Of a stretch of 64,000 bases of DNA, positions 8,756-31,234 are shown piece after piece. Position 1 is the first letter of the stretch, and each line of letters begins with the position of its first letter. Source of the DNA: Actinomadura fibrosa (GTDB taxonomy: Bacteria > Actinomycetota > Actinomycetes > Streptosporangiales > Streptosporangiaceae); the NCBI RefSeq assembly GCF_900659615.1, contig NZ_CAACUY010000001.1, forward strand, positions 62,001-126,000. Reading direction: 5' to 3'. The notes under the pieces were generated by a model. It was not told where the DNA came from, ran no database searches, and saw only the letters and a list, made by a program, of their open reading frames with translations. Made by a program: the position numbers and the translations under genes.

Positions 8756-11700
8756 TCAGCCGTCCAGCAGATGGGGCGCGGCCACCGCGGCGCGCTCGAA
8801 CGGCCCGTGCTCCAAGCCGTCGACCCCGGCGTACTCGCGGTAGGACACCGGACGCGTACCGGGCTCGCCGATCAGCACCCAGCGGCGGGCCCGGACCGCG
8901 CCGATCAGGAAGTCCGCGTCCGTGACCGCCCCGGCCCCGGCGACGACCAGCGCGTCGAACTCCTCCCCGTCCACCGCGACGCCCGCGCCCAGCGGGGTGC
9001 CGACGACCACGTCCGCGGTGCGGAGCAGGACCTCGCTCGCCGCCTCGGACGCCTCACCGCCCTCCATGAACCCCCTGAGCTCCTCGATACGGGCCATCGC
9101 CCGCCGCTGATGCGTGGGGATCAGCTCGGCGTCGTCCGCCGGATCGGCGCCGCAGATCTCGCGGACGTTCTCCCGCGAGCGCGCCTCCGCCTCCGCCGCC
9201 GTCGCCTGCTCGGCGTCCCGCCTGGCCAGCTCCTCCGCCGCCTCCGCCACGTGCCGGTCGAGCGCGGCCCGCACCTCCGCCGCACGGGACGCCGCCTGCT
9301 CGGCCTCCGCCCGCGCGCGCTGGGCGGCCGCGAGAGCCTGCTCGCGGGACGTCCGGGCGGCGTTCACCCGCTCCTCGATCACATGGGCGGCCTGCTGCGC
9401 GCCGCGTGCCTCCAAACTCGCCTGCGTGGCCCGGTCGACGGACTCCGCGGCCAGCCTCGCCTGCTCCCGGTGCTCCGCGCCCGCCTTCTCCCGCTCCGTC
9501 GCCAGCCACGCCAGCTCCGTCCCGAGCCGCTGCTGCGCCTCCTGCGCCGTCGCGAGCCGCGACCCGCCGTCCGACACGAACGCCGCGATGCCCTGCCGGT
9601 GCTCCTCCGCCCGCTCCGCCGCGTCCTTGGCCTCCTTCGCCCGCCGCGCCGCCTCGTCCGCCTCCCGCGCCCGGGCCTTCACCTCCGCGCGCAGGCCGTT
9701 CAGCCCGGACGGCGGCGACGCGACGTGCAGCCGCTGCCCGAGCGTCATCTTCCGCCGCAGCGCCGACAGCGCCGACTCCGCCGACACCAGCCGGTAGTAG
9801 CTCGCATGCCCCTCGGCCGCCGCGTCCGCGTCCGCCGCCGCCAGCCGCTCGGCCTCCTCCGCCGCCGCGGGCAGCGCCTGCCTGGCCCGCTCCAGCTCGT
9901 CCACCAGGGACTCTTCCAGCCGCCGCGCCGAGTCGAGCTCGTTCTTGGCCGTCATCGCCCGCTGATCGAGCTCGGCGCACCGCGCGAACGCGGCATCCGC
10001 CGTCCGGGTCAGCTCGCCCGCCTCCGCGGCGGCCGCGTCCGCCACCGCCTGAAGCCGCTCCGCCTCCGCCCGCGGACCCTCCAGCTCCGCCTCCGCCTCG
10101 GCCTGCACGACGGCCAGCCGCTCCGCCTCCGCCTCGGCCTCCTCAGCCGCCCGCCCGGCCGCGGCGACCACGCCCTCCGACTCCTCGATCCCCGCCGCCA
10201 GCGCCGCCTGCTCCGCCTCCAACTGCTCCCGCCGCCGCAACCCCTCCGCCTGGACGGACTCCAGCGCCGCCGCGTCCCGGGGCCACTGCTCCAACCACAT
10301 CAACCCGCGCTGCAACATGCGCGCTTCCGTCCGCCACGACTGCCGCCACGCCTCCCCGACCGGCCGCACGACCACCTCGCGCACCCGCGCCTCGGGCGCC
10401 TGCGGCGCTTCGCTCCCGACCTCCGGGACGACCGGCGCGGGCAAGGTCTCATCGGCGCCGACCTCGTCCGGAATGACCGGCAGCCCCTCGACCCGGGTGA
10501 CCACCGACGGGGACTCCGGCTCGTCGGGCTCCGGCAGACTCACCGGCCGGAACTCGACCGTCCCGTGGGCCCCGAACTCCCTGACCGGCAGATCCGCCGC
10601 CCCGGCCTCCTCAACGACGGGCGCCGCGATCGTGCCGGTACTTCCCTCCTCCACGGGCCGGGTCTCGATCAGCAGCGGGAAGACCTCGGGATCGTCCTCG
10701 AAGCCTTGCAGCAGCTCAGCGGCCCTCTCCTGCGTCGGCGCGAGCAGCAACGCCCGGTCACCCCCGGCCGCCAGCGCCTTGACCACCGCACGGACCGCCT
10801 CGACCTCCGCCGCCCCGTCCCGCACCTCGACGAGACGGACCTGATCCGTCCCCTGCGCCAGCGACCCGGGCGACACGAGCAGCCGTGCGAGCACCTCCCA
10901 GTCACCCGCCACCCGTCCCTCACGCAACGCCCGCAACGCCGCGACATGCGGCGCCCACCCCACCGGCGGCACGGCCTCGGGCACCGCCCTTACTTGCGCG
11001 TCGAGCCGCTCGTACACCTCGGTCAGCGCCCCGAAGACGCTCTCGACCAGCTCCCGCCCACCCCACGCGTCCTGCTCCACACCAAGCGGCGGCGTGACGT
11101 TCGCCGACCCAGCCTGATCCCCCACAGGCTCGATCGGCATCGTCTCGAACCCCGATCGAGCATCCAGCACAGGCTCCTCAAGCCCCCCGACAACAGACCC
11201 GCCGTCCCCAACATCAGGCACGGTCTCCTCAGGACTCCCCGCCAAGGAAGCCGCCACATCACGCCCCACCTCGGCAGATGCGCCCGGCACGCCGGAAGGG
11301 GACCCAAGCCCCGTGGACACCGCCGCGTCCTCGCCGGGCATGGACACGACCTCAGACTCCGGCAGCGCAACCGGATCGGGCGCAGGCGCAGCCTCGGTCG
11401 GCGTGGGGCCGCCCTCGAATCCGGGAGCGCCCGAGAGTGGCTGCTGGGCCGCGGGTGTCACGGGCGTGGCTTCAATGGGCGCGTCCCCAGACCCGAGCGC
11501 GCCCGGGGCGGGCTGCGTGGGCGTGGACGCATCGCCAGCTTGCGCGGACGTGTTCTCGGTGGGCGCGTCCGGAGTGGCCGAAGCGGACCCAAACCCCGTG
11601 GACACGGGCGCGTCCTCGCCGGGTGTGGACCCCGGTAGCGCAGACGTGGGCAGCGCAGCCGGATCAGGCGCGGGCCCTGGAGGCGCCGACGCGGTCTGGG

Positions 11701-12814
11701 CGGGCGTGGGGGCGTCCTCAGACCCGGGCGCGGCCGAAAGTGGCTGCGTGCGCGCGGGTGCCACCTCAGGTTCCGGCGTGGCGTATGTGGGCGGCGCGGG
11801 CGTGACCTCGTTGGGCGCATCATCAGACGCGGGTGCGGCCGGGGCGGGTTGCGTGGGCGTGGACGCGGCTTCCGGCTCCGGCGCGGCGAAGGTGGGCGGC
11901 GCGGGCACTGTGGGCGTGGGCGTGGCCTCGGTGGGCGTGGGCGCGTCGTCAGCTCGCGTGGACGTGGGCGCGGCCTCAGGCTCCGGTAGCGCGGACGTGA
12001 CCGGCGCGGCCGGATCGGGTGCGGGCCCTGAGGGCGCAGGCGCTGCCTCGGCGGGTGTGGGCGCGTCCTCCAACCCGGGCGTGGCCGAGAGTGGCTGCGT
12101 GCGCGCGGGTGCCACCTCAGGTCTCGGTGCGAATGCGGGCGGTACGGGCGCTGTGGACCCAGGCGCCGCTTCGCTGTGGGTGGACGCGTCCTCAACCTGC
12201 GTGGACGCGGGCATGACCTCAGGCTCCGGCACGGCAGATATGGCTGGCGCGGCCGGATCGGGTGGCGTGGCTGAAGCGGACCCAAGCTCCGTGGACACAG
12301 GTGTGGGCTCGGCGGGCGTGGGCGCGGCCTCAGACCCGGGCGTGGCCGAGAGTGGCTGCGTGCGCGCGGGTGCCGCTTCGGGTTCTGGCGCGACGAATGT
12401 GGGCGGCGCGGGCGTGGGCGGCGTGGCCGGATCGGATGCGGTCCTAGTGGGCGCAGACGCGGCCTTGGCGGGCGTGGGCGCATCATCAGACGCGGGTGCG
12501 GCCGGGGCGGGCTGCGTTGGCGTGGACGCGGCTGCGGGCTCCGGCATCGCGGAGGTGGGCTGCGTGGGCGTTGTGGGCGCGGGCGTGGCCTCGGTGTGCG
12601 TGGGCGCCTCGTCAGCTCGCGTGGACGTGGGCGCGGGCTCAGGCTCTGGCATCGCGGACGTGGCCGGCGCGTTCTCTGGCCCGGGTGCGGCCGGGAGTGG
12701 CTGCGTGGGGGCCGGTGTGGGGGCGGGTGGGGGCTTGAGCTCAGGGTCGGGTGTGGTTGCCGGGTGTTGTTCGTCCGGTCCGTTGTTGCCTGCTGACTGC
12801 TTCACCGACGCCAT
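8756..12814 (-). CDS. Giant Pro/Ala/Thr-repeat protein with coiled coil and degenerate SF1-helicase-like ends
   Basis: The ATG at 12814 gives 1352 residues. Residues ~15-560 are a Pro/Ala/Thr/Glu repeat. A globular segment (RELVESVFGALTEVYERLD) precedes ALLLAPTQERAAELL near residue 690, which resembles motif Ia of Upf1/Dna2-type SF1 helicases. Residues ~830-1220 form an Ala/Glu-rich coiled coil. The last 100 residues (ADVVVGTPLGAG, FDALVVAGAGAVTDADFLI, RRWVLIGEPGTRPV) match the motif II/III region. No Walker A is visible before motif Ia, and the DEAG-type Walker B reads VAGAG, so ATPase activity is unlikely. The helicase relation is inferred; the protein could be structural. Confidence 0.75.
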   Translation of the reverse strand: MASVKQSAGNNGPDEQHPATTPDPELKPPPAPTPAPTQPLPAAPGPENAPATSAMPEPEPAPTSTRADEAPTHTEATPAPTTPTQPTSAMPEPAAASTPTQPAPAAPASDDAPTPAKAASAPTRTASDPATPPTPAPPTFVAPEPEAAPARTQPLSATPGSEAAPTPAEPTPVSTELGSASATPPDPAAPAISAVPEPEVMPASTQVEDASTHSEAAPGSTAPVPPAFAPRPEVAPARTQPLSATPGLEDAPTPAEAAPAPSGPAPDPAAPVTSALPEPEAAPTSTRADDAPTPTEATPTPTVPAPPTFAAPEPEAASTPTQPAPAAPASDDAPNEVTPAPPTYATPEPEVAPARTQPLSAAPGSEDAPTPAQTASAPPGPAPDPAALPTSALPGSTPGEDAPVSTGFGSASATPDAPTENTSAQAGDASTPTQPAPGALGSGDAPIEATPVTPAAQQPLSGAPGFEGGPTPTEAAPAPDPVALPESEVVSMPGEDAAVSTGLGSPSGVPGASAEVGRDVAASLAGSPEETVPDVGDGGSVVGGLEEPVLDARSGFETMPIEPVGDQAGSANVTPPLGVEQDAWGGRELVESVFGALTEVYERLDAQVRAVPEAVPPVGWAPHVAALRALREGRVAGDWEVLARLLVSPGSLAQGTDQVRLVEVRDGAAEVEAVRAVVKALAAGGDRALLLAPTQERAAELLQGFEDDPEVFPLLIETRPVEEGSTGTIAAPVVEEAGAADLPVREFGAHGTVEFRPVSLPEPDEPESPSVVTRVEGLPVIPDEVGADETLPAPVVPEVGSEAPQAPEARVREVVVRPVGEAWRQSWRTEARMLQRGLMWLEQWPRDAAALESVQAEGLRRREQLEAEQAALAAGIEESEGVVAAAGRAAEEAEAEAERLAVVQAEAEAELEGPRAEAERLQAVADAAAAEAGELTRTADAAFARCAELDQRAMTAKNELDSARRLEESLVDELERARQALPAAAEEAERLAAADADAAAEGHASYYRLVSAESALSALRRKMTLGQRLHVASPPSGLNGLRAEVKARAREADEAARRAKEAKDAAERAEEHRQGIAAFVSDGGSRLATAQEAQQRLGTELAWLATEREKAGAEHREQARLAAESVDRATQASLEARGAQQAAHVIEERVNAARTSREQALAAAQRARAEAEQAASRAAEVRAALDRHVAEAAEELARRDAEQATAAEAEARSRENVREICGADPADDAELIPTHQRRAMARIEELRGFMEGGEASEAASEVLLRTADVVVGTPLGAGVAVDGEEFDALVVAGAGAVTDADFLIGAVRARRWVLIGEPGTRPVSYREYAGVDGLEHGPFERAAVAAPHLLDG
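11250..12790. repeat. Long degenerate intragenic repeat encoding Pro/Ala/Thr-rich sequence
   Basis: About 1.5 kb of the preceding gene consists of related units of roughly 130-190 bp. They encode phrases that recur many times with small changes, such as ARTQPLSATPG, DAPTPAEA and STPTQPAPAAPASDDAP. The repeat likely expands and contracts by recombination or slippage. The encoded region should be disordered and extended, so it could act as a long linker. Confidence 0.75.
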
Positions 12815-16764: not shown

Positions 16765-17979
16765 ATGAGCCGGGAGGGCGTCGACCATGCCCTCGGCACC
16801 CTCCGGGACGAGCGGGAGCGGATCGCCGCGTCGCTGCTGGAGCTCGACGGCCACCACGGCAACCGGCTGCTGAAGGGGGCGCGGCTCGGCGGGGAGACGT
16901 GGCGGCGGTGGGACGCGGCGCAGAACCGGCTGGCGATGCTCTGGCGGCTGTTCGACGCCTACCAGCGCGTCCTGGAGGAGGCCGCCGAGGTGCGGGGGCG
17001 GTCGTCGCGGCCCGACGCGGCGACGCTCGTCGAGCTGACCGGGATGCTGTCGGGGACGTCGGTGGAGGTCCCGGACGGCGAGATCCCGCTCCAGTCGCGC
17101 ACGCTCCTTGGGCCACAGGCGCGGCGGGTGACGCTGGACGAGGCCGTCGCCCTGATGTCGGAGGCCTTCGAGTTCGTGGCGGCGGAGATCGCGGCGATCG
17201 ACGCGGCGTGGACGGAGCTGCTGCCGCCGCTGGAGGAGGCCGAGGAGACCTGGCGGGAGACGGCGCGGCTCGCCCACGCGCTGGACGGGACGCGCCATCC
17301 CGAGCTGGACCGGCTCGGCCGCGAGCTGACCGCGCTGGGCCGGCTGGTCCGCACCGATCCGCTGTCGCTGGTCCGGGACGGCCGGGTCGACACGTCCCGC
17401 CTCGACCGGGTCACGTCGGTGCTGGCGTCGCTGCGCGGTGAGCTCGCCGGGGTGGCCCGCCTCCGGGACGGCTACGAGGAGCAGATCGCGCCGATCGCCG
17501 CGTTCATCCGGGAGGTGGAGGACACCGAGCGCCGCGCCGCCGAGACGTACGCGGCGGTGCTGGAGAAGATCGAGTCGCCGATGCTGCCGGAGCCGGCCCG
17601 CGACCTCGGCGCGGGGCTGCGCGACCGGCTCACCGCGCTGGAGCGGCTGCGGGAGGCGGGCCGCTGGGTCGAGATGGCCGGCCGCGTCGCCGAGCTGGAA
17701 CAGGCCGCCGCCGACGCGCTGGAACGGGCGCGCAACGACCTGCGTCTCAGTGCCGGACTGCTCGAACGCCGGGGCGAGCTCCGGGGGCGGCTGGAGGCCT
17801 ACCGGGCCAAGGCCGCGCGCCTGGGCCTGGCCGAGGACGAGACGCTCACCCGGCTCTACGGGGAGGCCCGCGACGTGCTGTGGACGGCGCCGTGCGACCT
17901 GCGCGGCGGCACCGTGGCGGTCGCGGAGTACCAGCGTGCGCTCAGGGCGTGCGAGACCGAGACGGGAACGCCGCGATGA
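16765..17979 (+). CDS. Helical/coiled-coil protein at the head of the PknG operon
   Basis: The ATG at 16765 gives 404 residues; an in-frame GTG at 16732 with GGGG upstream is an alternative. The protein is almost entirely helical, with Arg/Glu/Leu/Ala-rich heptads (RDERERIAASLLELDGHHGNR at the start, RVAELEQAAADALERARNDL near the end). It has no signal peptide, membrane segment or enzymatic motif. Its stop overlaps the kinase start (ATGA), so it is produced with PknG and probably interacts with it or with the membrane sensor. I recognise it only as the conserved first gene of such operons, without known function. Confidence 0.75.
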   Translation: MSREGVDHALGTLRDERERIAASLLELDGHHGNRLLKGARLGGETWRRWDAAQNRLAMLWRLFDAYQRVLEEAAEVRGRSSRPDAATLVELTGMLSGTSVEVPDGEIPLQSRTLLGPQARRVTLDEAVALMSEAFEFVAAEIAAIDAAWTELLPPLEEAEETWRETARLAHALDGTRHPELDRLGRELTALGRLVRTDPLSLVRDGRVDTSRLDRVTSVLASLRGELAGVARLRDGYEEQIAPIAAFIREVEDTERRAAETYAAVLEKIESPMLPEPARDLGAGLRDRLTALERLREAGRWVEMAGRVAELEQAAADALERARNDLRLSAGLLERRGELRGRLEAYRAKAARLGLAEDETLTRLYGEARDVLWTAPCDLRGGTVAVAEYQRALRACETETGTPR

Positions 17980-20465
17980 CCCGATGTGCCCAGGACGGCT
18001 GCACGGGCGAGATCGACGCCGACGGCTTCTGCGACGTGTGCGGCATGGCGCCGCTCGCGGAGCCGCCGCCGGTGGACCCGTCCGCCGCGTCCGAGGGGAG
18101 CCCCGCGCCGGGGACCGGTGGCTCGTCCGTCCCCGTGGGCCCGCTCTCCGTCGGGACGACCCCGACCCCGCCCGCCGTGCAACCCACCTCCGAATCGAGC
18201 GGTACTGGGAGCTCCGGGGACGGATCGGTGCCCTCCGGCGGGACCGGGCGGACGGCGTCGCGCGGCGGGACGCGAGGGACGGGCTCCAGCGGCTCGACCC
18301 GGCGCGGGATGCTCGGCGCCGGGCTGGTGGAGGTGCCGCCCGTCCCGGCCCGCGATCCCGCGTCGGCGGTCATGGCGGTCGCCGAGGTGCCGGAGAACCG
18401 GCGCTATTGCAGCCGGTGCGGCGAGAAGGTCGGCCAGGGACGCGACGGGCGCCCGGGCCGCACGGAGGGGTTCTGCCGGACCTGCGGGCATCCGTTCTCG
18501 TTCACGCCGAAGCTCCGCAAGGGCGAGATGATCGGCGGGCAGTACGAGGTGCTCGGCTGCCTGGCGCACGGGGGCCTCGGCTGGGTGTACCTGGCCCGCG
18601 ACCACAACGTCAGCGAGCGCTGGGTCGTCCTCAAGGGCATGCTCGACTCGGGCGACGCCGACTCGCTCGCCGCCGCGACCGCCGAGCGCGCGTTCCTCGC
18701 CGAGGTCGAGCACCCCAACATCGTCAAGATCTACAACTTCGTGCGGCACGGCGGCTCCGGCTACATCGTGATGGAGTACGTCGGCGGCCGGTCGCTCAAG
18801 GAGATCCTGCTCAGCCGCCGCGAGGCCGAGGGCGAGCAGGCCGCGCTCCCCCTCGGCCAGGTGATCGCGTACGGGCTGGAGGTGCTGAGCGCGCTCGGCT
18901 ACCTGCACGGCGTGGGCCTGCTGTACTGCGACTTCAAGCCGGACAACGCGATCCAGTCCGAGGAGCAGCTGAAGCTGATCGACCTCGGCGGGGTCCGGCG
19001 GGTGTTCGACGCCGACAGCCCGATCTTCGGGACGCCCGGCTACCAGGCGCCCGAGATCGGCTCGGCCGGGCCGTCCGTCACCTCCGACCTGTACACGGTG
19101 GGGCGGACGCTCGCGGTGCTGAGCTTCCCGTTCCGCGGCTACACGGGACGGCACCTGCGCAGCCTGCCGCCGCGCGAGGAGGTGCCGCTGTTCCAGCGGC
19201 ACGAGTCCTACCACCGGCTGCTGCGCCGGGCCACGCACCCCGACCCCGCCCGCCGGTTCCAGAGCGCCGCCGAGATGGCCGAGCAGCTCACCGGCGTGCT
19301 CCGCGAGGTGCTGTCCGCCGAGGACGGGCGGCCCCGGCCGGCGCCGTCGGCGCTGTTCGGGCCGGAGCAGTACGCCGCCGGCACGGAGATCCTCGGCATC
19401 GGGAGCCTCGGCGACGCCCGCCCGATTGCGGCCCGCGCGAACGGATCCCGTGGCGGTAAGGCCCGCGCGAACGGGTCCAGTGCGAAGCTCGCCACCGCGG
19501 CCGGTACCCAGGCGAGCGGGGCCGGTGCGGGCGGGCGGGTCGTGCCCGTCCTCGCGCCGCTCTCCTCGGCGGCGGCCGCCGCGGCGCTGCCCGTCCCGCT
19601 CGTGTCGGGGACGGATCCGGCGGCGGGGTTCCTCGCGGGCCTCACCGCCCGCGACCCCGGCGACCTCGCCTCCGCGCTGGACGCGGCGCCCGTCCCGTCC
19701 CGCGAGGTGCGGCTCGCGCTGGCGCGGGTGCGGATCGAGCTGGGCGACCTGGACGGTGCGGGCAAGCTCCTCGACGAGCTCGGCGCAGACCGTCCCGACG
19801 ACTGGCGCGTCGACTGGTACCGGGGTGCCCGCGCCCTCGCGGGGGGCCGGTGCGCCGAGGCGGCGGCCGTGTTCACCGACCTGTACGACCTGATGCCGGG
19901 GGAGCAGGCGCCGAAGCTCGCGCTGGCCTTCTGCAACGAGTGCCGGGGCGACGCGGCCGGTGCCGAGCGCTTCTACGAGACGGTGTGGCGCACCGATCCC
20001 ACGCACGTCAGCGCCGCGTTCGGGCTGGCCCGCTGCCGGCTGGACGCCCGCGACCGCGCGGCGGCCGAGCGGGTGCTCGACTCGGTCCCCCGCATCTCCA
20101 GCCACTACCAAGCCGCGCAGCTCGCGGCGGTCGCGACGGCCGTGCGCGGGCGCCGCCCCGGCGAGCTGGACGCGGCCGTCCTCGTCGAGGCGGGGCGGCG
20201 GCTCCAGTCGCTGCGGCTCGACACCGAGCGGTACGCGGCGTTCGCGGCGGAGGTCCTGGAGGCGGCGCTGGACTGGCTGCGCGCCGACCGCGGCGCCGCC
20301 CGGCGCTCCGACCGGCGGGTCCTCGGCGTGCCGTTGCGGGAGCAGGCCCTGAGGGGGGAGCTTGAGGGGAAGTACCGGGTCCTCGCCAAGCTCGCGGGCG
20401 GGCAGGAGCAGCGGCACGCGATGGTGAGGCGCGCGAACGCGGTCCGTCCGAGGACCCTGTTCTGA
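17976..20465 (+). CDS. pknG: PknG-type serine/threonine protein kinase with zinc ribbons and TPR domain
   Basis: The 829-residue soluble kinase begins with a zinc ribbon (Cys4, Cys9, Cys19, Cys22). After a disordered linker comes a second Cys cluster (YCSRCG, FCRTCG), matching the rubredoxin-like module of mycobacterial PknG. The kinase domain spans ~185-450: GGLG in the Gly loop, a VLKG lysine, YCDFKPDN as catalytic loop (Asp without the usual HRD Arg, as in PknG) and LIDLGG for DFG. The C-terminal ~280 residues are TPR-like. In mycobacteria PknG phosphorylates GarA/OdhI to set TCA-cycle and glutamate flux. Here it sits with PP2C, VWA, FHA, GlnX and GlnH genes. Confidence 0.93.
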   Translation: MTRCAQDGCTGEIDADGFCDVCGMAPLAEPPPVDPSAASEGSPAPGTGGSSVPVGPLSVGTTPTPPAVQPTSESSGTGSSGDGSVPSGGTGRTASRGGTRGTGSSGSTRRGMLGAGLVEVPPVPARDPASAVMAVAEVPENRRYCSRCGEKVGQGRDGRPGRTEGFCRTCGHPFSFTPKLRKGEMIGGQYEVLGCLAHGGLGWVYLARDHNVSERWVVLKGMLDSGDADSLAAATAERAFLAEVEHPNIVKIYNFVRHGGSGYIVMEYVGGRSLKEILLSRREAEGEQAALPLGQVIAYGLEVLSALGYLHGVGLLYCDFKPDNAIQSEEQLKLIDLGGVRRVFDADSPIFGTPGYQAPEIGSAGPSVTSDLYTVGRTLAVLSFPFRGYTGRHLRSLPPREEVPLFQRHESYHRLLRRATHPDPARRFQSAAEMAEQLTGVLREVLSAEDGRPRPAPSALFGPEQYAAGTEILGIGSLGDARPIAARANGSRGGKARANGSSAKLATAAGTQASGAGAGGRVVPVLAPLSSAAAAAALPVPLVSGTDPAAGFLAGLTARDPGDLASALDAAPVPSREVRLALARVRIELGDLDGAGKLLDELGADRPDDWRVDWYRGARALAGGRCAEAAAVFTDLYDLMPGEQAPKLALAFCNECRGDAAGAERFYETVWRTDPTHVSAAFGLARCRLDARDRAAAERVLDSVPRISSHYQAAQLAAVATAVRGRRPGELDAAVLVEAGRRLQSLRLDTERYAAFAAEVLEAALDWLRADRGAARRSDRRVLGVPLREQALRGELEGKYRVLAKLAGGQEQRHAMVRRANAVRPRTLF

Positions 20466-20467
20466 TC

Positions 20468-21634
20468 ATGGACGCCGACATGAAGCCCGGCACGGACGCC
20501 GGTCGGAAGGCATTAGGGGAGGCGCGCGGCGGGGCCTGCGCGTCCTGCGGCGAGCCCTACGAAGGGACGGACCGGTTCTGCGAGCGCTGCGGCCATCCGC
20601 ACGCGTGCCGCATCGCCGTCCCGAGGCCGGAGGCCGGGCCCGGACGCTGCGCCGACTGCGGTGCGGGAGCCGTCGGCGCCGACGGGTACTGCGACCAATG
20701 CGGCCTGCGGCAGCCGTCAGGCCGGGAGCATCTGGAGGCCGAGCTGAAGGGGGACGCCGGTCCGCCGTCCGCCGCCGCCGTGACGGACGTCGGCTCGCGC
20801 CGCGCCCGCAACGAGGACGCGTTCGCCCTCGTGGCACTCCCGCAGGCGGTGTGCGGGGTCGTGTGCGACGGCGTGGCGACGGCTCCCGGGTCCGAGGAGG
20901 CGGCGTGGCTCGCCGCCGGGACCGCCGCGCGCGTCCTCGCCGGACGGCTCGCCGCCGGGATGAGCCCCCATCTCGCGATGCGGACCGCCGCGGTCCTGGC
21001 GGGCGAGGCCGTGGCGTCGCTGCCGGGCAGCGGCGCGCCGGGTGACCCGCGCGGCCGTCCCGCCTGCACGTTCGTGTCGGCGATCGTCCAGGACGGCGGT
21101 GTCACGGTCGGCTGGATCGGCGACAGCCGGGCCTACTGGCTCGCGGGGCCGGAAGGCGGGTCCCGGCTGCTGACACGGGACGACTCGTGGGCCGTCCGGA
21201 TGATCGCGCGGGGGACGATGAGCGCGGCGGACGCCTGGGCCGACCGGCGGGCGCACCTGCTGACGGCCTGGCTGGGCACCGGCGCGGGCCTGCTCGACCC
21301 GCACGTCACGGCGTTCCGGCCCGGCGGACCCGGGCTCGTCCTGATCTGTAGCGACGGGTTCTGGAACGACCTGCCGGACGCGTCGGCCATCGCGGCCGTC
21401 GCACGAACCGGCACGAACACGCCCGCAGGCCCGGATCCGGACATGGACGTCGGCGCGGACCCGTTCGCCGATCCGCTCGCCGTGGCCCGGCGCCTGGTGC
21501 GGGCGGCGCTCGACGCGGGCGGGCACGACAACGTCACGGTGGCGGCCATCCCGTTCCCGCCGCACGGCCCCGACGGCGCGTCCACCGGCGGAACCGAACC
21601 CAGCCTCACCGAATTCAGGGAGCCCGGACCATGA
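20468..21634 (+). CDS. PP2C-family protein phosphatase with two N-terminal zinc ribbons
   Basis: The 388-residue protein starts two bases after the kinase stop. Two zinc ribbons (Cys24/27/38/41 and Cys61/64/75/78) precede a PP2C domain. Metal and phosphate-binding motifs are visible in SRRARNEDAF, VVCDGVA, WIGDSRAYWL, ICSDGFWND and GGHDNVTVA. It lacks the membrane segment of PstP-like phosphatases, so it is cytosolic. Its second ribbon (ADGYCDQCG-like) closely resembles the first ribbon of the kinase. It probably reverses PknG phosphorylation. Its ATGA overlap with the next gene implies coupled translation. Confidence 0.9.
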   Translation: MDADMKPGTDAGRKALGEARGGACASCGEPYEGTDRFCERCGHPHACRIAVPRPEAGPGRCADCGAGAVGADGYCDQCGLRQPSGREHLEAELKGDAGPPSAAAVTDVGSRRARNEDAFALVALPQAVCGVVCDGVATAPGSEEAAWLAAGTAARVLAGRLAAGMSPHLAMRTAAVLAGEAVASLPGSGAPGDPRGRPACTFVSAIVQDGGVTVGWIGDSRAYWLAGPEGGSRLLTRDDSWAVRMIARGTMSAADAWADRRAHLLTAWLGTGAGLLDPHVTAFRPGGPGLVLICSDGFWNDLPDASAIAAVARTGTNTPAGPDPDMDVGADPFADPLAVARRLVRAALDAGGHDNVTVAAIPFPPHGPDGASTGGTEPSLTEFREPGP

Positions 21635-22962
21635 CCGACCTTCCCGAGTTCACCATCAGAGTCGACCAGAACCCGTACCTCCCGGCGGACGGCACCGAGA
21701 TGCACGCGATCATCTCCGTCGAGGCGCGCGCGTCCGCGGGCGCCCGGCCGGGCACCCCGCGCGGCGAGGCGGCCGAGATCATCATCATCGACACCTCGGG
21801 GTCGATGTCCTACAGCGGCAAGATGGCCGCGGCGAAGCGGGCGGCGAAGGCGGCGGTCGGCGTGCTGCGCGACGGCGTGCACTTCGCCGTGGTCGCCGGC
21901 GCGAACCAGCCGCGGATGGTGTACCCGCAGCAGGAGCGGCTGGTGCGGGCGGGCGAGAAGACCCGGCGGGACGCGGCGGGCGCCGTCCAGCGGCTGGACG
22001 CGGCGGGCGGGACGGCGATCGGGTCGTGGCTCCGGCTGGCCGACCGGCTGTTCGCGGGGCACGGCGACGCCGTCCGGCACGCCATCCTGCTGACCGACGG
22101 GAAGAACCAGCACGAGTCCGACGAGGAGCTGGAGTCGGCGCTCCGGCAGTGCGCGGGCGCGTTCGTCTGCGACGCGCGGGGCGTCGGCACCGACTGGAAC
22201 GTCGCCGAGCTCCGCAAGATCACCTCGGCGCTGCTGGGCGGCTTCCTCGACGTGCCCGACCCGCGCGATCTGGAGGCCGACTTCCTCGCGATGGCGCGGG
22301 ACGCGATGGGCAAGGAGATCGCGGACGTGGTCCTGCGCGTCTGGACGCCGCAGAACGCCGAGGTCGGGCTGATGAAGCAGATGGCGCCCACGGTGGAGGA
22401 CCTCACCGGCCGCCGGTCGGAGGCGGGGACGCGGCTCGGCGACTACCCGCTCGGCGCCTGGGGTACGGAGCAGCGCGAGTACCACCTGTCCGTGACGGTC
22501 CCGCCGGGCGACGTCGGGCGGCAGATGCGCGCCGCCTGGGTGAAGGTGATCGCTCCCGCGCGGGGCGGGGAGGCCGAGCGGGTCCTGGCCACCGGGAACG
22601 TCCTCGCGGAGTGGACGGACGACGAGGCGAAGTCGACGAGGATCAACATGCGCGTGGCGCACCACACCGGGCAGGCGGAGCTCGCCCAGGCCATCAACGA
22701 GGGCATGGAGGCCCGGCGCGAGGGCGACGAGGACACCGCCACCGCCCGGCTGGGGCGGGCCGTGGTGCTGGCCAAGCGGGTCGGGAACGAGGAGATCGCC
22801 GGGCTCCTGGACCGGGTCGTCGACGTCGTGGACGCGGAGTCGGGCACCGTCCGGCTGAAGCGGGACGTGTCCAAGGCCGACGAGATGTCGCTGGAGACCC
22901 GGTCCGTGCGGACGGTGCGGACACGCCAGGGCGAGGAGCCCCCGAACGAGGCCGGGAGCTGA
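21631..22962 (+). CDS. von Willebrand factor A domain protein of the PknG operon
   Basis: The 443-residue cytosolic protein has a VWA domain at about residues 50-230 with an intact MIDAS motif (IIDTSGSMSYSG). Conserved downstream elements include GGTAIGSWL and ILLTDGKNQHES. The second half is a beta-rich domain (EYHLSVTVPPGDVG, RAAWVKVIAP) followed by a helical C-terminus. No signal peptide or membrane segment is present. VWA domains bind protein partners through a metal ion, so a scaffold role in the kinase/phosphatase complex is plausible. It overlaps the PP2C gene by four bases. Confidence 0.88.
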   Translation: MTDLPEFTIRVDQNPYLPADGTEMHAIISVEARASAGARPGTPRGEAAEIIIIDTSGSMSYSGKMAAAKRAAKAAVGVLRDGVHFAVVAGANQPRMVYPQQERLVRAGEKTRRDAAGAVQRLDAAGGTAIGSWLRLADRLFAGHGDAVRHAILLTDGKNQHESDEELESALRQCAGAFVCDARGVGTDWNVAELRKITSALLGGFLDVPDPRDLEADFLAMARDAMGKEIADVVLRVWTPQNAEVGLMKQMAPTVEDLTGRRSEAGTRLGDYPLGAWGTEQREYHLSVTVPPGDVGRQMRAAWVKVIAPARGGEAERVLATGNVLAEWTDDEAKSTRINMRVAHHTGQAELAQAINEGMEARREGDEDTATARLGRAVVLAKRVGNEEIAGLLDRVVDVVDAESGTVRLKRDVSKADEMSLETRSVRTVRTRQGEEPPNEAGS

Positions 22963-22966
22963 GGCC

Positions 22967-23833
22967 ATGCCGGTATGCCCGAGCGGGCACGCGTCCGCCG
23001 CCGACGACTACTGCGACGTGTGCGGCACGCTCATGGGGGGCGCGCCGCGCGCCGAGTTCTCCGAGGCGGGCCGGGGTCCGGCGGCGTCCCCGTCCGGGTC
23101 CTCGGCGGCTTCGTCACGCGGCGGAGCGGGAGAGGCGGGAGCGCCGGAGGTCTGCCCGAGCTGCGGTACGCCACGGTCCGGACGGTTCTGCGAGGTGGAC
23201 GGTCACGACTTCGAGGCTGGTGCCGCCCGGACGACCGCCCTGTCCACGGCCCGCGCGGCGGAGATGGCGCGAGCGGCCGGGGCCCGCGCGGGGGAGCGCC
23301 CTGCCCGCGCGGTGGAGGACGCATCGCGGGTTCCGCCTCCGCGGGGCGCCGATCCGCCGAGTGGAGCCGAGGCTCCGCCGGGCTGGTCGGTGCTCATCAG
23401 CGCGGACCGCGACTACTACAACTCGGTGATCGCGCAGGAAGGCCCCGACTCGGCGTCGCTCGCCTTCCCCCCGTACTGCCCGGACCGCCGGTTGCCGCTG
23501 GTGGGCGACCAGGTGCGGATCGGACGGCGCAGCACGTCCCGCGCCATCCTGCCCGAGATCGACCTCAGCGTGCCCCCGGAGGACCCGGGCGTCTCGCACC
23601 TGCACGCCGTCCTCCTCGCCCAGCCGGACGGGACGTGGGTGCTGGTCGATCCCGGTTCCACCAACGGGACGACCGTGAACGGCGGCACCGAGCCGATCGC
23701 GGTGAACGTCCCGGTGCCGCTGCGGGACGGGGACCGCGTCCACGTGGGCGCCTGGACCACCCTCACGATCACGCTGCGCGAACCGCCGGGCGGGACGGGG
23801 ACGTCCGGTCCCGGGCGGGAGGGACCGCGATGA
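22967..23833 (+). CDS. FHA-domain protein with N-terminal zinc ribbons
   Basis: The 288-residue protein opens with a zinc ribbon (Cys4, His8, Cys16, Cys19; DDYCDVCG) nearly identical in pattern to the one starting the kinase. A second cluster (VCPSCG, RFCEVDGHD) and a disordered linker follow. An FHA domain occupies about residues 175-270, with the phosphothreonine-binding elements IGRRSTS, SHLHA and DPGSTNGT. It should read phosphothreonines made by PknG, perhaps on the kinase itself. It is larger than GarA/OdhI and lacks their N-terminal ETT-type phosphosite. It lies 4 bp after the VWA gene and overlaps the sensor gene (ATGA). Confidence 0.9.
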   Translation: MPVCPSGHASAADDYCDVCGTLMGGAPRAEFSEAGRGPAASPSGSSAASSRGGAGEAGAPEVCPSCGTPRSGRFCEVDGHDFEAGAARTTALSTARAAEMARAAGARAGERPARAVEDASRVPPPRGADPPSGAEAPPGWSVLISADRDYYNSVIAQEGPDSASLAFPPYCPDRRLPLVGDQVRIGRRSTSRAILPEIDLSVPPEDPGVSHLHAVLLAQPDGTWVLVDPGSTNGTTVNGGTEPIAVNVPVPLRDGDRVHVGAWTTLTITLREPPGGTGTSGPGREGPR

Positions 23834-25383
23834 CTCCGCCTCCGGGACAGCTTGCGCCCGCGACCCGCCCGTCCGCGAAGCCCGCGCAGCCGGGTGCGGA
23901 CCAGTCCGCACCCCTGGTGACCGGGATATCCGGGAACGTCGCCGAACGGCGGGAGGGCCGGTTGGCGACGTTCGTCCGGGGACGCTGGATCCACACCATC
24001 CCGGGGCGCATCCGCGCTTACACGGCCGCGATCCTCGCCGCCCTGGCGGTGCTGCTCACCGTCCTCACCGTGGCCGTCGGCAACGCGCGCGACTCCGTCC
24101 AGACGATCGGCCACGACGCCGGACCGCAGGTCGTCGCCACCGGCACACTGTACTTCGCGCTCAGCGACATGGACGCGCAGGTCTCCAACATCCTGCTGAT
24201 GGGGCGCGACCACGACCTCGGCATCGGCTACGACGCGACGCTGCGGGTCTACGAGCGGCGCCGCGCGGAGGCGGGCGCGGCGGCGGTGCAGGCCGCGCAG
24301 CTCGCCAGCCGGGACGCCGACCTGCGGACGACCGTCCAGCAGGTCCTGCAGGGCCTCGGCCGGTACGAGGAGCTCGTCGGGCGGGCCCTGCTACTCGACC
24401 AGCAGGCCGACCACCCGGCGGGACGGCTGCCGGGGCAGGTCGTCGACGCCTACCGGCAGGCGACCGACCTCATGCGGCTCGAACTGCTGCCCAAGGCGTA
24501 CAACATCACGCTCGACAGCGGCGCGAACGTCCGGCAGGCGTACGAGACGAAGCGGTCGGCGGTGCTGTCCGGCCGGGCGTGGGTCGCGGTGACCGGCGCG
24601 CTCGTCCTGCTGCTCATGATCGCCGCGCAGGTCTACCTCGCCCGGACGTTCCGCCGCGTGCTCAACCCGGCGATGGTGCTCGCCACGGTCGCGGCGGCCG
24701 TGCTCGCCGCCGTCGGCACCGGCCTGCTGACGGCGCAGGCCGGGCACATCCGGACCGCCAAGCAGGACGGCTTCGACTCGATCCTCGCGCTGTCGCGGGC
24801 CCGCGCGATCAGCCACAGCGCGTTCGCCGACGAGAGCCGCTACCTGCTCGACCCGGGCCGCGCCGACACCTACGAGCAGACGTACCTCGACAAGTCGCTG
24901 TCCGTCCTCTACCCCGATCTCGGCACCAGGCCCGTCGTGCTGGAGAACTACTACACGGGCCTGGACGAGCAGGTCGGCGCGTACACGCCCGGTGGGCCGG
25001 TCCGCTTCCTCGGCTTCTTCGGCGACGAGGCGCGCGGGATCGGGCGCGGCGGACCGGAGGCCGACGCCCTCGTCCGGACGCTCCGCTCGTACCGGACCGT
25101 CCTCGACAACGACCGCCGCATGCGCGCGCTCGCGGCCGGGAACGACCGGCCCGGGGCCGTCGACCTGCGCATGGGCAAGTCGTCCAGCGCGCTCCGCGAC
25201 TTCGACGCCTACGACGCGGCCCTGCGCGGGCTGACCGGCGTCCACCAGGACGTCTTCGACCAGGCCATCGACGACGCGGACGGCGGGCTGCGGGGCTGGT
25301 CCGCGCTGCCGCCGATCGCCGCCGCGGCCATCGCCCTGCTCGTGCTCGCCGGGGTCCGGCCCCGGCTCGCCGAGTTCCGCTGA
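23830..25383 (+). CDS. glnX: GlnX-like transmembrane sensor
   Basis: The 517-residue protein has a cytoplasmic N-terminus of about 60 residues and a first membrane helix (about 62-84). An extracytoplasmic helical domain follows, then a central hairpin of two helices (about 248-300), a second extracytoplasmic helical domain and a final helix near residue 500. This layout matches mycobacterial GlnX, which relays the state of the binding protein GlnH to PknG. No kinase or HAMP motif is visible. The gene overlaps the FHA gene by four bases and is separated from glnH by a short tandem repeat. Confidence 0.8.
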   Translation: MTPPPGQLAPATRPSAKPAQPGADQSAPLVTGISGNVAERREGRLATFVRGRWIHTIPGRIRAYTAAILAALAVLLTVLTVAVGNARDSVQTIGHDAGPQVVATGTLYFALSDMDAQVSNILLMGRDHDLGIGYDATLRVYERRRAEAGAAAVQAAQLASRDADLRTTVQQVLQGLGRYEELVGRALLLDQQADHPAGRLPGQVVDAYRQATDLMRLELLPKAYNITLDSGANVRQAYETKRSAVLSGRAWVAVTGALVLLLMIAAQVYLARTFRRVLNPAMVLATVAAAVLAAVGTGLLTAQAGHIRTAKQDGFDSILALSRARAISHSAFADESRYLLDPGRADTYEQTYLDKSLSVLYPDLGTRPVVLENYYTGLDEQVGAYTPGGPVRFLGFFGDEARGIGRGGPEADALVRTLRSYRTVLDNDRRMRALAAGNDRPGAVDLRMGKSSSALRDFDAYDAALRGLTGVHQDVFDQAIDDADGGLRGWSALPPIAAAAIALLVLAGVRPRLAEFR

Positions 25384-25385
25384 CC

Positions 25386-25442
25386 CGCCCGACCAGCCGC
25401 CCGACCAGCCGCCCGACCAGCCGCCCGACCAGCAGCCCGACC
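25386..25442 (+). repeat. 12-bp tandem repeat between glnX and glnH
   Basis: The unit CGCCCGACCAGC is repeated four times without change (25386-25433), followed by a degraded partial copy. It lies between the glnX stop and the glnH ribosome-binding site. It could vary the spacing or RNA structure between the two genes. Confidence 0.9.
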
Positions 25443-25456
25443 CGGAGGAGCACGCC

Positions 25457-26278
25457 ATGCGCGCGACCCGCACCGCCGCCGCCGTGGGCGTCCTGACCGT
25501 CCTCGCCGGGACGTCCGCCTGCGGGCTGGACGGCTCGGAGCCGCACACCGTGGCCCGCAAGCACTCCCTGGTCATCGGGGTCAAGGAGGACCAGCCGATG
25601 CTCGGGTTCAAGCGCGGCGGCACCTACGAGGGCTTCGACGTCGACGTGGCGCTCTATGTCGCGGGCCGGCTCGGGGTCCCGCGGGACCGGGTGCGGTTCC
25701 GCACGACGAACTCCTCGGTCCGCGAGTCGGCGCTGGCGTCCGGCGCGGTCGACATGATCTTCGCGACGTACTCGATCACGGCGAAGCGCAAGACGCAGGT
25801 CACGTTCGGCGGCCCGTACTACGTCGCCCACCAGGACACGCTGGTCCGCGCCGACGCCACGTCCATCGGGAACGTCCGGGACCTGAAGGGCAAGCGTATC
25901 TGTGAGGTGACCGGGTCGAACTCCTGGCGGCGCGTCGTCGAGGAGCGGAGGATCGCGGCGCGGCCGGTCACCGCACCCACCTACGGCGCCTGCATGGACG
26001 ACCTGGCCGCGGGAAAGCTCGACGCCGTCTCCACCGACGACCTGATCCTGGCCGGGTTCGCCGCGGGCCGCGGCGTCCGCATCGTCAACGCGCCGTTCAC
26101 GGACGAGAAGTACGGCGTCGGCCTGAAGAAGGGCGACCTGGAGGGCTGCGAGCTCGTCAACCGGGCGATCACCCGCATGTACCAGGACGGGACGGCGGCG
26201 CGCCTGCTGGACAAGTGGTTCGGCAAGTCGGGGCTCAAGCTGACGACGAGCGTCCCGCAGTTCGAGGGCTGCTCCTGA
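25457..26278 (+). CDS. glnH: GlnH-like glutamate/aspartate-binding lipoprotein (family 3 solute-binding protein)
   Basis: The 273-residue protein has an N-terminal signal with a lipobox-like end (AGTSAC), suggesting a membrane-anchored lipoprotein. The mature part is a family 3 amino-acid-binding fold with GVKEDQPMLGF, YEGFDVDVALYVA, a FRTTNSSVRESAL hinge, GKRICEVTGSNSW and DAVSTDDLILAG. No ABC permease or ATPase gene is adjacent. This is expected if the protein signals to GlnX/PknG rather than serving uptake. GGAGGA just upstream supports the start. Ligand identity is inferred from mycobacterial GlnH. Confidence 0.87.
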   Translation: MRATRTAAAVGVLTVLAGTSACGLDGSEPHTVARKHSLVIGVKEDQPMLGFKRGGTYEGFDVDVALYVAGRLGVPRDRVRFRTTNSSVRESALASGAVDMIFATYSITAKRKTQVTFGGPYYVAHQDTLVRADATSIGNVRDLKGKRICEVTGSNSWRRVVEERRIAARPVTAPTYGACMDDLAAGKLDAVSTDDLILAGFAAGRGVRIVNAPFTDEKYGVGLKKGDLEGCELVNRAITRMYQDGTAARLLDKWFGKSGLKLTTSVPQFEGCS

Positions 26279-29872: not shown

Positions 29873-31234
29873 ATGCCCGTGGTCGTCGTGGCCGTCGCCG
29901 CCGTCGCCGCCGTCATCGTGCTCATCGTGCTGTTCAAGCTGGTCTGGCGGGTGGCCGAGCCGAACGAGGCGCTCATCATCTCCGGTCTGGGGGCGAGGGC
30001 CCACAACCGCGACACCGCCGAGAGCCTCGGCTTCAAGATCGTTACGGGCAAGGGCACCTCGGTGCTGCCCGGCTTCCAGACCTGCCGGCGCCTCTCGCTG
30101 GACACCCGCGCCTCCGACCTCGTGGTCACCTGCGTCACCCGGCAGGGCATCAAGGTCCACGTCCGCGGGGTGGTGATCTACAAGGTCGGGGACGACTTCG
30201 TCTCCATCGCCAACGCCGCCCGGCGCTTCCTCGACCAGCAGAAGCTGATGGACGACAAGACCCACCAGCTGTTCGCGGGCCACCTCCGGTCGATCATCGG
30301 GCACCTCACGATCGAGGACCTGATCCACAACCGGGAGGAGCTGACCAACCAGGTCCGCACCTCCTCCGCCGACGAGATGAGCAAGCTCGGCCTGGTCGTG
30401 GACTCGCTCCAGATCCAGGAGATCGAGGACGACTCCGGCTACATCGAGGCGCTCGGCCGCCCGGACGCCGCCGCCGTGGCCGCGAAGGCCCGCATCGCCG
30501 AGGCGGCCCGCAACCAGGAGGCCACCGTCGCCGAGCAGGAGGCCGAGCGGCAGAACGCGGCCGTGATCCGGGACACCGAGATCAAGAAGGCCGAGTACGA
30601 GGGCCAGGTCCAGCAGGCGGCGCAGCAGGCCCGCCAGGAGGTCATCCTCAAGGAGACCCGCAACGCCGAGCTGGAGGCCGAGCGCACCGAGAAGCGGCTG
30701 GAGAGCGAGATCCGCAAGCCCGCCGACGCCCGCGCGTACGAGCAGGTCACGCTGGCCGAGGCCGAGCGGGAGGAGCGCATCGCGCACGCCCAGGCCGCGG
30801 CGACCGAGGTCCAGCTCCGGGCGCAGCGGGAGGCGGAGGCCACCCGCATCCTCGGTGAGGCGCAGGCCCAGGCGACCCGCCAGAAGGGCCTCGCCGAGGC
30901 CGAGGCGATCAAGGCCCGCGGGGACGCGCTCGCGCACAACACCGACGCGGTCATCGCCCAGCAGCTCGCCGAGCAGTGGCCGCAGATCGTCGAGGCCGGC
31001 GCGGGCGTGTTCGGCAACGTCGACAACATGGTCGTGCTCAACGGCGCCGAGGGCGTCGAGGACATGCTCGCCAAGGCGCTCACCCTCGGCGGCACCGGTC
31101 TCGGCGTCGCCCGCCAGCTCCTCGCCGGCATGAACGGCGCCAACGGCCAGAACGGGCAGAACGGACGGAGCGGCGGCGCGCCCGAGGCGTCGCCCGTCCC
31201 CGCGGCTCCCGTCGAGGCGCCCAAGGACAACTGA
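29873..31234 (+). CDS. Flotillin-like SPFH-domain protein
   Basis: The 453-residue protein has an N-terminal membrane anchor (VVVVAVAAVAAVIVLIVLF). An SPFH domain follows (about residues 30-200, with ACVTRQGIKVHVRGVV-like strands), then a long Ala/Glu/Gln-rich coiled coil (about 200-350) containing repeated A-E motifs. The C-terminus is rich in Gly/Asn. This is the FloT/YqiK layout: oligomers that organise membrane microdomains. AAGGAGG lies just upstream of the ATG. A strong palindromic terminator follows the stop. Confidence 0.92.
   Translation: MPVVVVAVAAVAAVIVLIVLFKLVWRVAEPNEALIISGLGARAHNRDTAESLGFKIVTGKGTSVLPGFQTCRRLSLDTRASDLVVTCVTRQGIKVHVRGVVIYKVGDDFVSIANAARRFLDQQKLMDDKTHQLFAGHLRSIIGHLTIEDLIHNREELTNQVRTSSADEMSKLGLVVDSLQIQEIEDDSGYIEALGRPDAAAVAAKARIAEAARNQEATVAEQEAERQNAAVIRDTEIKKAEYEGQVQQAAQQARQEVILKETRNAELEAERTEKRLESEIRKPADARAYEQVTLAEAEREERIAHAQAAATEVQLRAQREAEATRILGEAQAQATRQKGLAEAEAIKARGDALAHNTDAVIAQQLAEQWPQIVEAGAGVFGNVDNMVVLNGAEGVEDMLAKALTLGGTGLGVARQLLAGMNGANGQNGQNGRSGGAPEASPVPAAPVEAPKDN

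Follow-up and report, generated by a model that had tools for sequence, protein, structure and literature searches.

A seven-gene long form of the PknG-GlnX-GlnH signalling locus in Actinomadura fibrosa is widely conserved among its relatives

Gene content of the locus and the closest described systems

The signalling chain that leads from the lipoprotein GlnH through the membrane sensor GlnX to the Ser/Thr kinase PknG is backed by experiments in relatives of the organism considered here (PMC6069109, PMC9769921), and a TPR docking model has been presented (PMC8546545). On the basis of STRING, the operon arrangement has been described as conserved in Actinomycetales (PMC6069109, whose figure may draw the neighbouring genes without comment), and a 2005 survey mentions pknG beside glnH and, in its accessible parts, no seven-gene operon (PMC1262709). 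In a stretch of 64,000 nucleotides from Actinomadura fibrosa (contig NZ_CAACUY010000001.1, positions 62,001 to 126,000; hereafter the window), we identified seven genes on the forward strand (cc, pknG, pp2c, vwa, fha, glnX and glnH; 16765-26278, Table 1), and conclude that this locus is a real, widely conserved long form of the known signalling pathway. Three of its junctions (cc/pknG, pp2c/vwa and fha/glnX) are ATGA overlaps, two are short gaps (2 and 4 bases) and 73 bases separate glnX from glnH, in agreement with the coordinates, overlaps and short gaps of a preliminary description of this DNA. No account of the cc, PP2C, VWA and FHA proteins together with PknG was found in the open-licence literature, as far as its text was accessible.

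As in the GlnH-GlnX-PknG-OdhI/GarA pathway of Corynebacterium and Mycobacterium (PMC6069109, PMC8546545, PMC9769921), a homologous PknG, a GlnX-family protein and a GlnH-like lipoprotein are encoded in one cluster. Common to both are the TPR, kinase and rubredoxin domains (corynebacteria lack rubredoxin) and the GlnX tail, and in both OdhI is encoded outside the operon (as an orthologue candidate in the window's genome). Unlike that pathway, the window locus adds cc, PP2C, VWA and FHA proteins and an N-terminal zinc ribbon on PknG, none of which was found at 13 mycobacterial-type loci. A similar parts list (Ser/Thr kinase, phosphatase, FHA protein and VWA domain) characterizes the type VI threonine phosphorylation pathway (PpkA, PppA, Fha). 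The phosphatase of that pathway is of the PP2C class. Its VWA domain is fused to PpkA (PMC1262709), whereas here the VWA protein is separate and the kinase is PknG-type, and the resemblance is one of parts only; the operon and flanking proteins scanned (a scan covering the locus only) matched no type VI family, and a kinase-VWA fusion beside type VI secretion genes was not found at the locus.

The protein families and their catalytic residues support this assignment. PknG exceeds the Pfam cut-offs for PknG_rubred (PF16919, 93.2 bits, cut-off 28.5), Pkinase (PF00069, 97.3 bits, cut-off 31.7) and PknG_TPR (PF16918, 303.6 bits, cut-off 27) and matches the PknG structure 2pzi_A (E 6.6e-160); its catalytic Lys, Asp, Lys, Asn and DLG Asp are all present and are kept in 136-138 of 141 rows (most others being gaps). 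The phosphatase (PF13672, PP2C_2, 50.1 bits, cut-off 24) has all five scored Asp residues and stays below the cut-off of the Stp1-type equivalog NF033484 (82.4 bits, cut-off 230). The VWA protein (PF13768, VWA_3, and PF18571, VWA_3_C, both over cut-off) conserves DxSxS, T and D of the metal-ion-dependent adhesion site (MIDAS), and the FHA protein (PF00498, 51.1 bits) conserves G/R, SxxH and N. Kinase, PP2C, MIDAS and FHA residues are near-universal across the aligned rows. Most of the exceptions are gaps, and those at the first two PP2C Asp columns are confined to Micromonosporaceae. The preliminary description had proposed a PknG-GlnX-GlnH locus and a MIDAS-bearing VWA protein; the Pfam and NCBIfam matches agree with the former, and the MIDAS is intact, as are the PP2C and FHA residues.

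GlnX passes the NCBIfam model NF058618 "GlnX family" (295.8 bits, cut-off 250), falls below the cut-off of the equivalog NF041460 (kinase G-activating protein GlnX; 51.4 bits, cut-off 780) and is only about 20% identical to mycobacterial-type GlnX. Its four hydrophobic segments and its AlphaFold2 model (long helices, mean predicted local distance difference test score, pLDDT, 91.6) predict four membrane helices and two periplasmic helical domains, which would match the published topology; GlnX had no PDB match at E<=0.001. GlnH carries SBP_bac_3 (PF00497, 100.1 bits) and a Cys after its hydrophobic N-terminus (lipobox read by eye). In line with the earlier remark that glnH has no transport permease beside it, a scan of eight flanking genes gave no match to a permease family (for two of the eight it gave no family at all), and within these eight genes no permease or ATPase of an amino-acid ATP-binding cassette importer accompanied the binding protein. 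Neither cc nor GlnX has a Pfam family over cut-off; the AlphaFold2 model of cc (mean pLDDT 94.7) is almost wholly helical and matched nothing in the PDB at E<=0.001. An EzrA-like fold for cc, the best row of a second look (Z 10.5, root-mean-square deviation 5.7, 252 aligned), was rejected as lying below the tool's meaningful level for helical bundles.

Conservation and history of the long form

The PknG_TPR profile was searched in 197 class-level, 150 family-level and 65 genus-level genomes, and 140 neighbourhoods plus the window yielded 141 loci (the class search gave 70 other rows over cut-off, of which 67 were taken and three, of mycobacterial type, omitted; 40 family-search and 33 genus-search rows picked by hand were added). 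Genes were called with profiles derived from the seven proteins of the window locus (matches of at least 40 bits kept), and as contig ends truncate some loci, the completeness counts are lower bounds. Groups f4, f18 and f17 were read as mycobacterial-type, Streptomyces and Micromonosporaceae from scores and named relatives (g1 and f1 being the window's genus and family); we refer to pp2c, vwa and fha as the trio, and to pknG loci with these genes as the long form.

All seven genes occurred together in 67 of the 141 loci (window included) and pknG with the trio in 85. Complete loci made up 16/34 in the genus, 30/48 in the rest of the family, 15/21 in Streptomyces, 5/18 in Micromonosporaceae and 1/1 in f11; f26 (0/5, no cc above threshold) and f27 (0/1) had none, with the trio present in all of their loci. 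The mycobacterial-type loci were never complete (0/13), comprising glnX-glnH-pknG in 11 cases and pknG by itself in two. Complete loci always keep the order cc-pknG-pp2c-vwa-fha, with glnX-glnH placed after this block in all complete loci of the family (genus included) except L131 and L134. In Streptomyces, Micromonosporaceae, f26 and f11, glnX-glnH lies ahead of the block. A genome from a different class (G564, locus L170) has the five-gene block, with glnH and glnX on the opposite strand.

A second set of 80 named loci, ranked by similarity to the window kinase and hence an uneven sample of the phylum, contained 49 complete loci and 52 with pknG and the trio. It was split into Actinomadura/Spirillospora (10/14 complete, 11/14 with pknG and trio), loci assigned by genus name to Pseudonocardiaceae (0/21 and 1/21), and the remainder, mostly Streptomyces (39/45 and 40/45). 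The two sets overlap (several contigs are of equal length, among them L078/L183, L091/L182 and L105/L185) and their counts are not additive; in both, the conservation of the PP2C, VWA and FHA genes with pknG, on which the preliminary description had staked part of its case, holds. The top identity in named genomes was to Actinomadura mexicana (92% in the best segment, the match spanning PknG residues 1-473). Across a phylum sample, PknG_TPR was over cut-off in 17 of 246 genomes. Among the 197 class genomes, VWA_3_C and PknG_TPR were both over cut-off in 36, PknG_TPR by itself in 19 (14 of them mycobacterial-type), VWA_3_C by itself in two and neither in 140; the genomes are related, which makes the Fisher value indicative only, and we exclude chance because of the conservation itself. 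We regard the gene content and its conservation as nearly certain, and put forward the complex discussed below, with its chemistry, as hypotheses.

Many genomes of the genus carry two such operons, named A and B sets from bit scores. The A set formed one group in all seven gene trees (the unseeded L081 and a fragment from the window's own genome, L171, falling inside it), and the B set, to which the window belongs, did so in six of seven (with weak support for cc, 0.283), the rooting of the GlnH tree having prevented the test for group B. That the split is alike across the judgeable gene trees suggests that the operons were inherited as units. In nine B loci (L183 being the same contig as L078) pp2c is gone from eight, with 23-87 bases between pknG and vwa, and L083 (10402-12012) retains a decayed pp2c remnant between these two genes, the other six operon genes remaining. 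The fragment in the window's genome is contig C473 (L171:1-3089), a second, type-A operon with a pp2c piece, vwa and fha, cut by the contig ends; the PknG_TPR search gave no match for its kinase. A third PknG paralogue of the genus (L087, L090, L093, L100, L103) has glnX and no adjoining trio.

The direction of change was considered on an IQ-TREE analysis of 44 PknG proteins, hand-picked from 84, in which root and direction were not inferred by the program. The three-gene lineages (mycobacterial-type and Pseudonocardiaceae) are nested, together with long-form lineages, in a starred group, other long-form lineages lie outside it, and vwa presence needs at least six changes. We prefer loss, since it is less likely that one set of genes was gained several times over in an identical order. 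Separate losses of the trio in the mycobacterial-type and Pseudonocardiaceae lineages were not upheld: a constraint placing both in a single clade was not rejected (approximately unbiased test, p 0.422), and therefore a single loss suffices. The trio is present at one metagenome locus of Amycolatopsis (L195), and pp2c is retained in Lentzea (L254). The long form is found in Streptomycetaceae, in Actinomadura and its family, in part of Micromonosporaceae and in one genome of another class; it is the widespread form, and the mycobacterial-type form, which appears to have lost four genes, looks like the reduced one (complete loci in 0/13 mycobacterial-type and 0/21 Pseudonocardiaceae loci), so that "expanded", the term first applied to the window locus, is probably misplaced. 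A bolder reading, which we hold tentatively and find plausible without calling it likely, is that the seven-gene form would be the ancestral PknG machine, a membrane-coupled, zinc-ribbon-assembled complex of kinase, phosphatase, FHA and VWA proteins that operates in the manner of the type VI threonine phosphorylation pathway. The mycobacterial GlnX-GlnH-PknG set would then be a stripped remnant of this machine, and in every form GlnX would address PknG through its C-terminal peptide. Should the long form indeed be ancestral, the pathway studied so well in mycobacteria is a special, reduced case, and the four partner genes are candidates for encoding the phosphatase and adaptors so far missing from the picture in Streptomyces and relatives. 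These organisms produce many antibiotics.

A proposed signalling module and its alternatives

Two features are new leads, namely the GlnX C-terminal peptide and the zinc ribbons on PknG, PP2C and FHA. The last eight residues of GlnX are its most conserved segment (mean 3.25 bits in an alignment of 49 GlnX proteins that covers short and long systems); of 413 alignment windows none but this one reaches that value. Second among the segments is the loop joining helices 2 and 3 (2.92 bits), and the periplasmic parts scored 2.35 and 2.00. The tail pattern fits in 31/34 loci of the genus, 43/46 of the rest of the family, 14/14 of Streptomyces, 10/11 mycobacterial-type, 1/1 of f11, 9/20 of Micromonosporaceae, 0/5 of f26, 17/18 of Pseudonocardiaceae and 59/60 of the remaining named or extra loci; where f26 and Micromonosporaceae tails did not fit, those inspected are variants of it. 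We propose that this peptide could serve as a docking tail for the TPR domain of PknG. The GlnX termini have been proposed as typical TPR partners (PMC6069109) and the mode of GlnX-PknG communication has been called elusive (PMC9769921), the peptide itself being unnamed in the accessible parts of both papers; its conservation in nearly all families examined makes the question directly testable.

Among loci with pp2c and vwa, a PknG ribbon was found by pattern in Streptomyces (14/14), f26 (5/5), other named loci (52/53, L195 being counted here throughout), the genus (19/21), the rest of the family (25/38), f11 (1/1), L170 (1/1) and Micromonosporaceae (2/7), and among loci without both genes in the genus (9/13), the rest of the family (8/10), other named loci (7/7) and Micromonosporaceae (2/11). 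The pattern was absent from the two reduced lineages (0/13 mycobacterial-type, 0/20 Pseudonocardiaceae); it misses variants, such as several Micromonosporaceae rows with C-x4-C and an altered last Cys, and the ribbons of L090 and L119. In loci with pp2c and vwa, the PP2C ribbon occurs in the genus (21/21), the rest of the family (38/38), Streptomyces (14/15), other named loci (53/54) and f26 (3/5), and is rare in Micromonosporaceae (1/7) and f11 (0/1); the corresponding counts for the first FHA ribbon are 18/20 for the genus, 31/39 for the rest of the family, 15/15 for Streptomyces, 47/50 for other named loci, 5/5 for f26 and 3/7 for Micromonosporaceae.

The domain matches, the conservation of the genes and of their active-site residues, the parallel split of the A and B operons, the GlnX tail, the zinc ribbons, the kept GlnH pocket residues and the published GlnH-GlnX-PknG work make it somewhat probable, in our judgement, that the locus encodes a conserved amino-acid-sensing Ser/Thr kinase module consisting of a membrane sensor, a kinase and a reversible FHA/VWA adaptor. 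The lipoprotein GlnH would bind an extracellular amino acid (most likely an acidic one) and signal through the two periplasmic helical domains of GlnX, whose cytoplasmic face, chiefly the C-terminal peptide, would engage the PknG TPR domain and set PknG activity. PknG would then autophosphorylate its Ser/Thr-rich N-terminal region, on which the operon FHA protein could dock as adaptor and/or substrate; the VWA protein may hold the zinc-ribbon proteins PknG, PP2C and FHA together, PP2C would reset the phosphorylation state, and OdhI/GarA, encoded elsewhere, would probably still be one output. The order from GlnH over GlnX to PknG is taken by homology from mycobacterial and corynebacterial work, and the roles given to VWA, FHA, PP2C, cc, the zinc ribbons and the docking tail are pure inference; gene content, conservation, intact active-site residues and paralogue co-inheritance are what is directly known here. 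Two joined frames were seen (cc-pknG in L037, vwa-fha in L122), which may be sequencing errors and were not used as evidence of interaction.

Several observations weigh against this reading. Two of seven compared pocket residues of M. tuberculosis GlnH are changed in the window protein (Trp232 to Tyr, Lys161 to Ala), because of which the GlnH ligand is uncertain. The first PP2C Asp column is a gap in 5 of 93 rows (all Micromonosporaceae). PknG copies accompanied by glnX alone often keep the ribbon, for which reason the link between ribbon and trio is one of lineage and not copy by copy, and some calls of "no ribbon" or "no FHA" may be pattern or gene-model losses. Moreover, pp2c is missing from several type-B operons in which the other genes persist, and of 12 (among 46) VWA_3_C matches not within 6 kb of a PknG_TPR match, six were inspected, four of which (L172, L173, L175 and L176, all Micromonosporaceae) showed pp2c-vwa-fha without a pknG match, so that the trio has a life of its own there. 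In L172 and L175 the trio adjoins what is presumably a cysteinyl-tRNA-ligase-like gene; of the other two inspected matches, one is C473 and the other L174 (8292-16350), where cc and the trio accompany a highly divergent PknG-like kinase that sits on a long branch and scores about 285 bits against the PknG profile.

The free-standing trios, the VWA_3_C matches without a nearby PknG_TPR match and the loss of PP2C would all be expected if PP2C, VWA and FHA (with or without cc) were a cytoplasmic system in its own right, acting on separate targets and placed in the operon solely to be co-expressed. We find this rather unlikely, given that 34 of the 46 VWA_3_C matches lie within 6 kb of a PknG_TPR match, that the order pknG-pp2c-vwa-fha is constant across families though the position of glnX-glnH switches, and that PknG_TPR is missing in just 2 of 38 genomes with VWA_3_C; the trio is usually, though not always, tied to PknG.

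The altered pocket residues bear on a different alternative, which leaves the sensing module as proposed and lets GlnH of this clade sense an amino acid other than Asp or Glu. GlnH aligns with M. tuberculosis GlnH (6h1u, E 2.1e-28), which is outranked in the PDB by the top match in E-value, a chain with the name AncQR, and the Trp232 position varies across 117 GlnH rows (Y 64, W 14, Q 14, I 12, L 4, others). Against this, the equivalents of Arg147, Thr162, Ser164, Arg169 and Asp250 are kept in the window protein, and Arg147 and Thr162, the residues assigned to the acidic side chain of the ligand (PMC6069109), are matched by Arg in 116 and by Thr or Ser in 112 of the 117 rows, and a switch of ligand is in our view unlikely.

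The preliminary description spoke of a "phospho-relay", a loose term where any passing of phosphate between the proteins is hypothetical, and its suggestion of a self-contained module is not supported: PP2C is dispensed with in the sister operons noted above, and an OdhI/GarA orthologue candidate is encoded on another contig of the window's genome (C211, beside a MerR-type gene; 197.3 bits, just below the NF041660 cut-off of 200). The operon FHA protein, with 17.4 bits to this model, was rejected as that orthologue. Strong matches to the OdhI model occurred in all genomes of two lists (32/32 and 30/30, over cut-off in 8 and 13, ten genomes being in both), and OdhI was also found in g2 genomes where the PknG_TPR search found none. 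The residue aligned by eye with the PknG site (Thr21/Thr14) is Thr in six mycobacterial-type, one f11 and one g2 OdhI, Ser in seven genomes of the window's family with PknG (the window's included) and Gln in four Micromonosporaceae, all from genomes with PknG, and an N-terminal zinc ribbon is present in the OdhI loci read from the window's family, f11, Micromonosporaceae and g2 and absent from the six mycobacterial-type ones (Streptomyces, Pseudonocardiaceae and the g2 locus L167 being outside the N-termini compared). That the operon FHA protein replaced OdhI/GarA as the main PknG substrate of long-form organisms, use of the OdhI site being a mycobacterial-type speciality, would suit these substitutions and the intact phosphothreonine-binding site of the FHA protein and is nevertheless quite improbable, in view of the ETTS of the long-form family f11, the TT pair of a g2 genome without a found PknG_TPR (on account of which the site was also discarded as a clean marker that tracks PknG), the still phosphorylatable Ser and following Thr of the window's OdhI, the lack of a conserved phospho-acceptor motif in the operon FHA by eye, and the restricted range of OdhI sites compared.

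Coordinates and flanking genes

Table 1. Features of the seven-gene locus and of related loci (positions refer to the window unless a locus is named)
Feature	Position	Strand	Description
cc	16765-17979	+	404-amino-acid all-helical protein encoded at the start of the operon; complete loci have homologues ahead of pknG
pknG	17976-20465	+	Ser/Thr kinase with N-terminal zinc ribbon, rubredoxin, kinase and TPR domains
PknG N-terminal zinc-ribbon motif	17985-18041	+	C-x4-C ... C-x2-C, from sequence
pp2c	20468-21634	+	PP2C-type phosphatase with N-terminal zinc-ribbon motifs
vwa	21631-22962	+	von Willebrand A protein with intact MIDAS and VWA_3_C tail
fha	22967-23833	+	FHA protein with two N-terminal zinc-ribbon-like motifs
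glnX	23830-25383	+	predicted four-helix membrane sensor with two periplasmic helical domains
GlnX C-terminal octapeptide RPRLAEFR	25357-25380	+	candidate docking tail for the PknG TPR domain
glnH	25457-26278	+	family-3 solute-binding protein with lipoprotein-like signal sequence
OdhI/GarA orthologue candidate of the window's genome	L160:1483-2160	-	own N-terminal zinc ribbon; Ser replaces the PknG-site Thr
Trio without pknG	L172:7384-11582		pp2c-vwa-fha

No promoter or terminator was found at the operon by consensus search, such consensus being uninformative for actinomycetes. The spacer between glnX and glnH (25384-25456) consists mostly of tandem repeats resembling GACCAGCCGCCC. Of the eight flanking genes scanned, those upstream encode two CNNM/CBS membrane proteins and a cation efflux protein, and those downstream a STAS-domain protein, an acyltransferase, an SPFH/flotillin-like protein (29873-31234, about 3.6 kb downstream of the operon) and the two products matching no family. 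Elsewhere in the window, a long frame on the reverse strand (8756-12700) shows Pro/Thr/Ala-rich repeats followed by a coiled-coil-like region.

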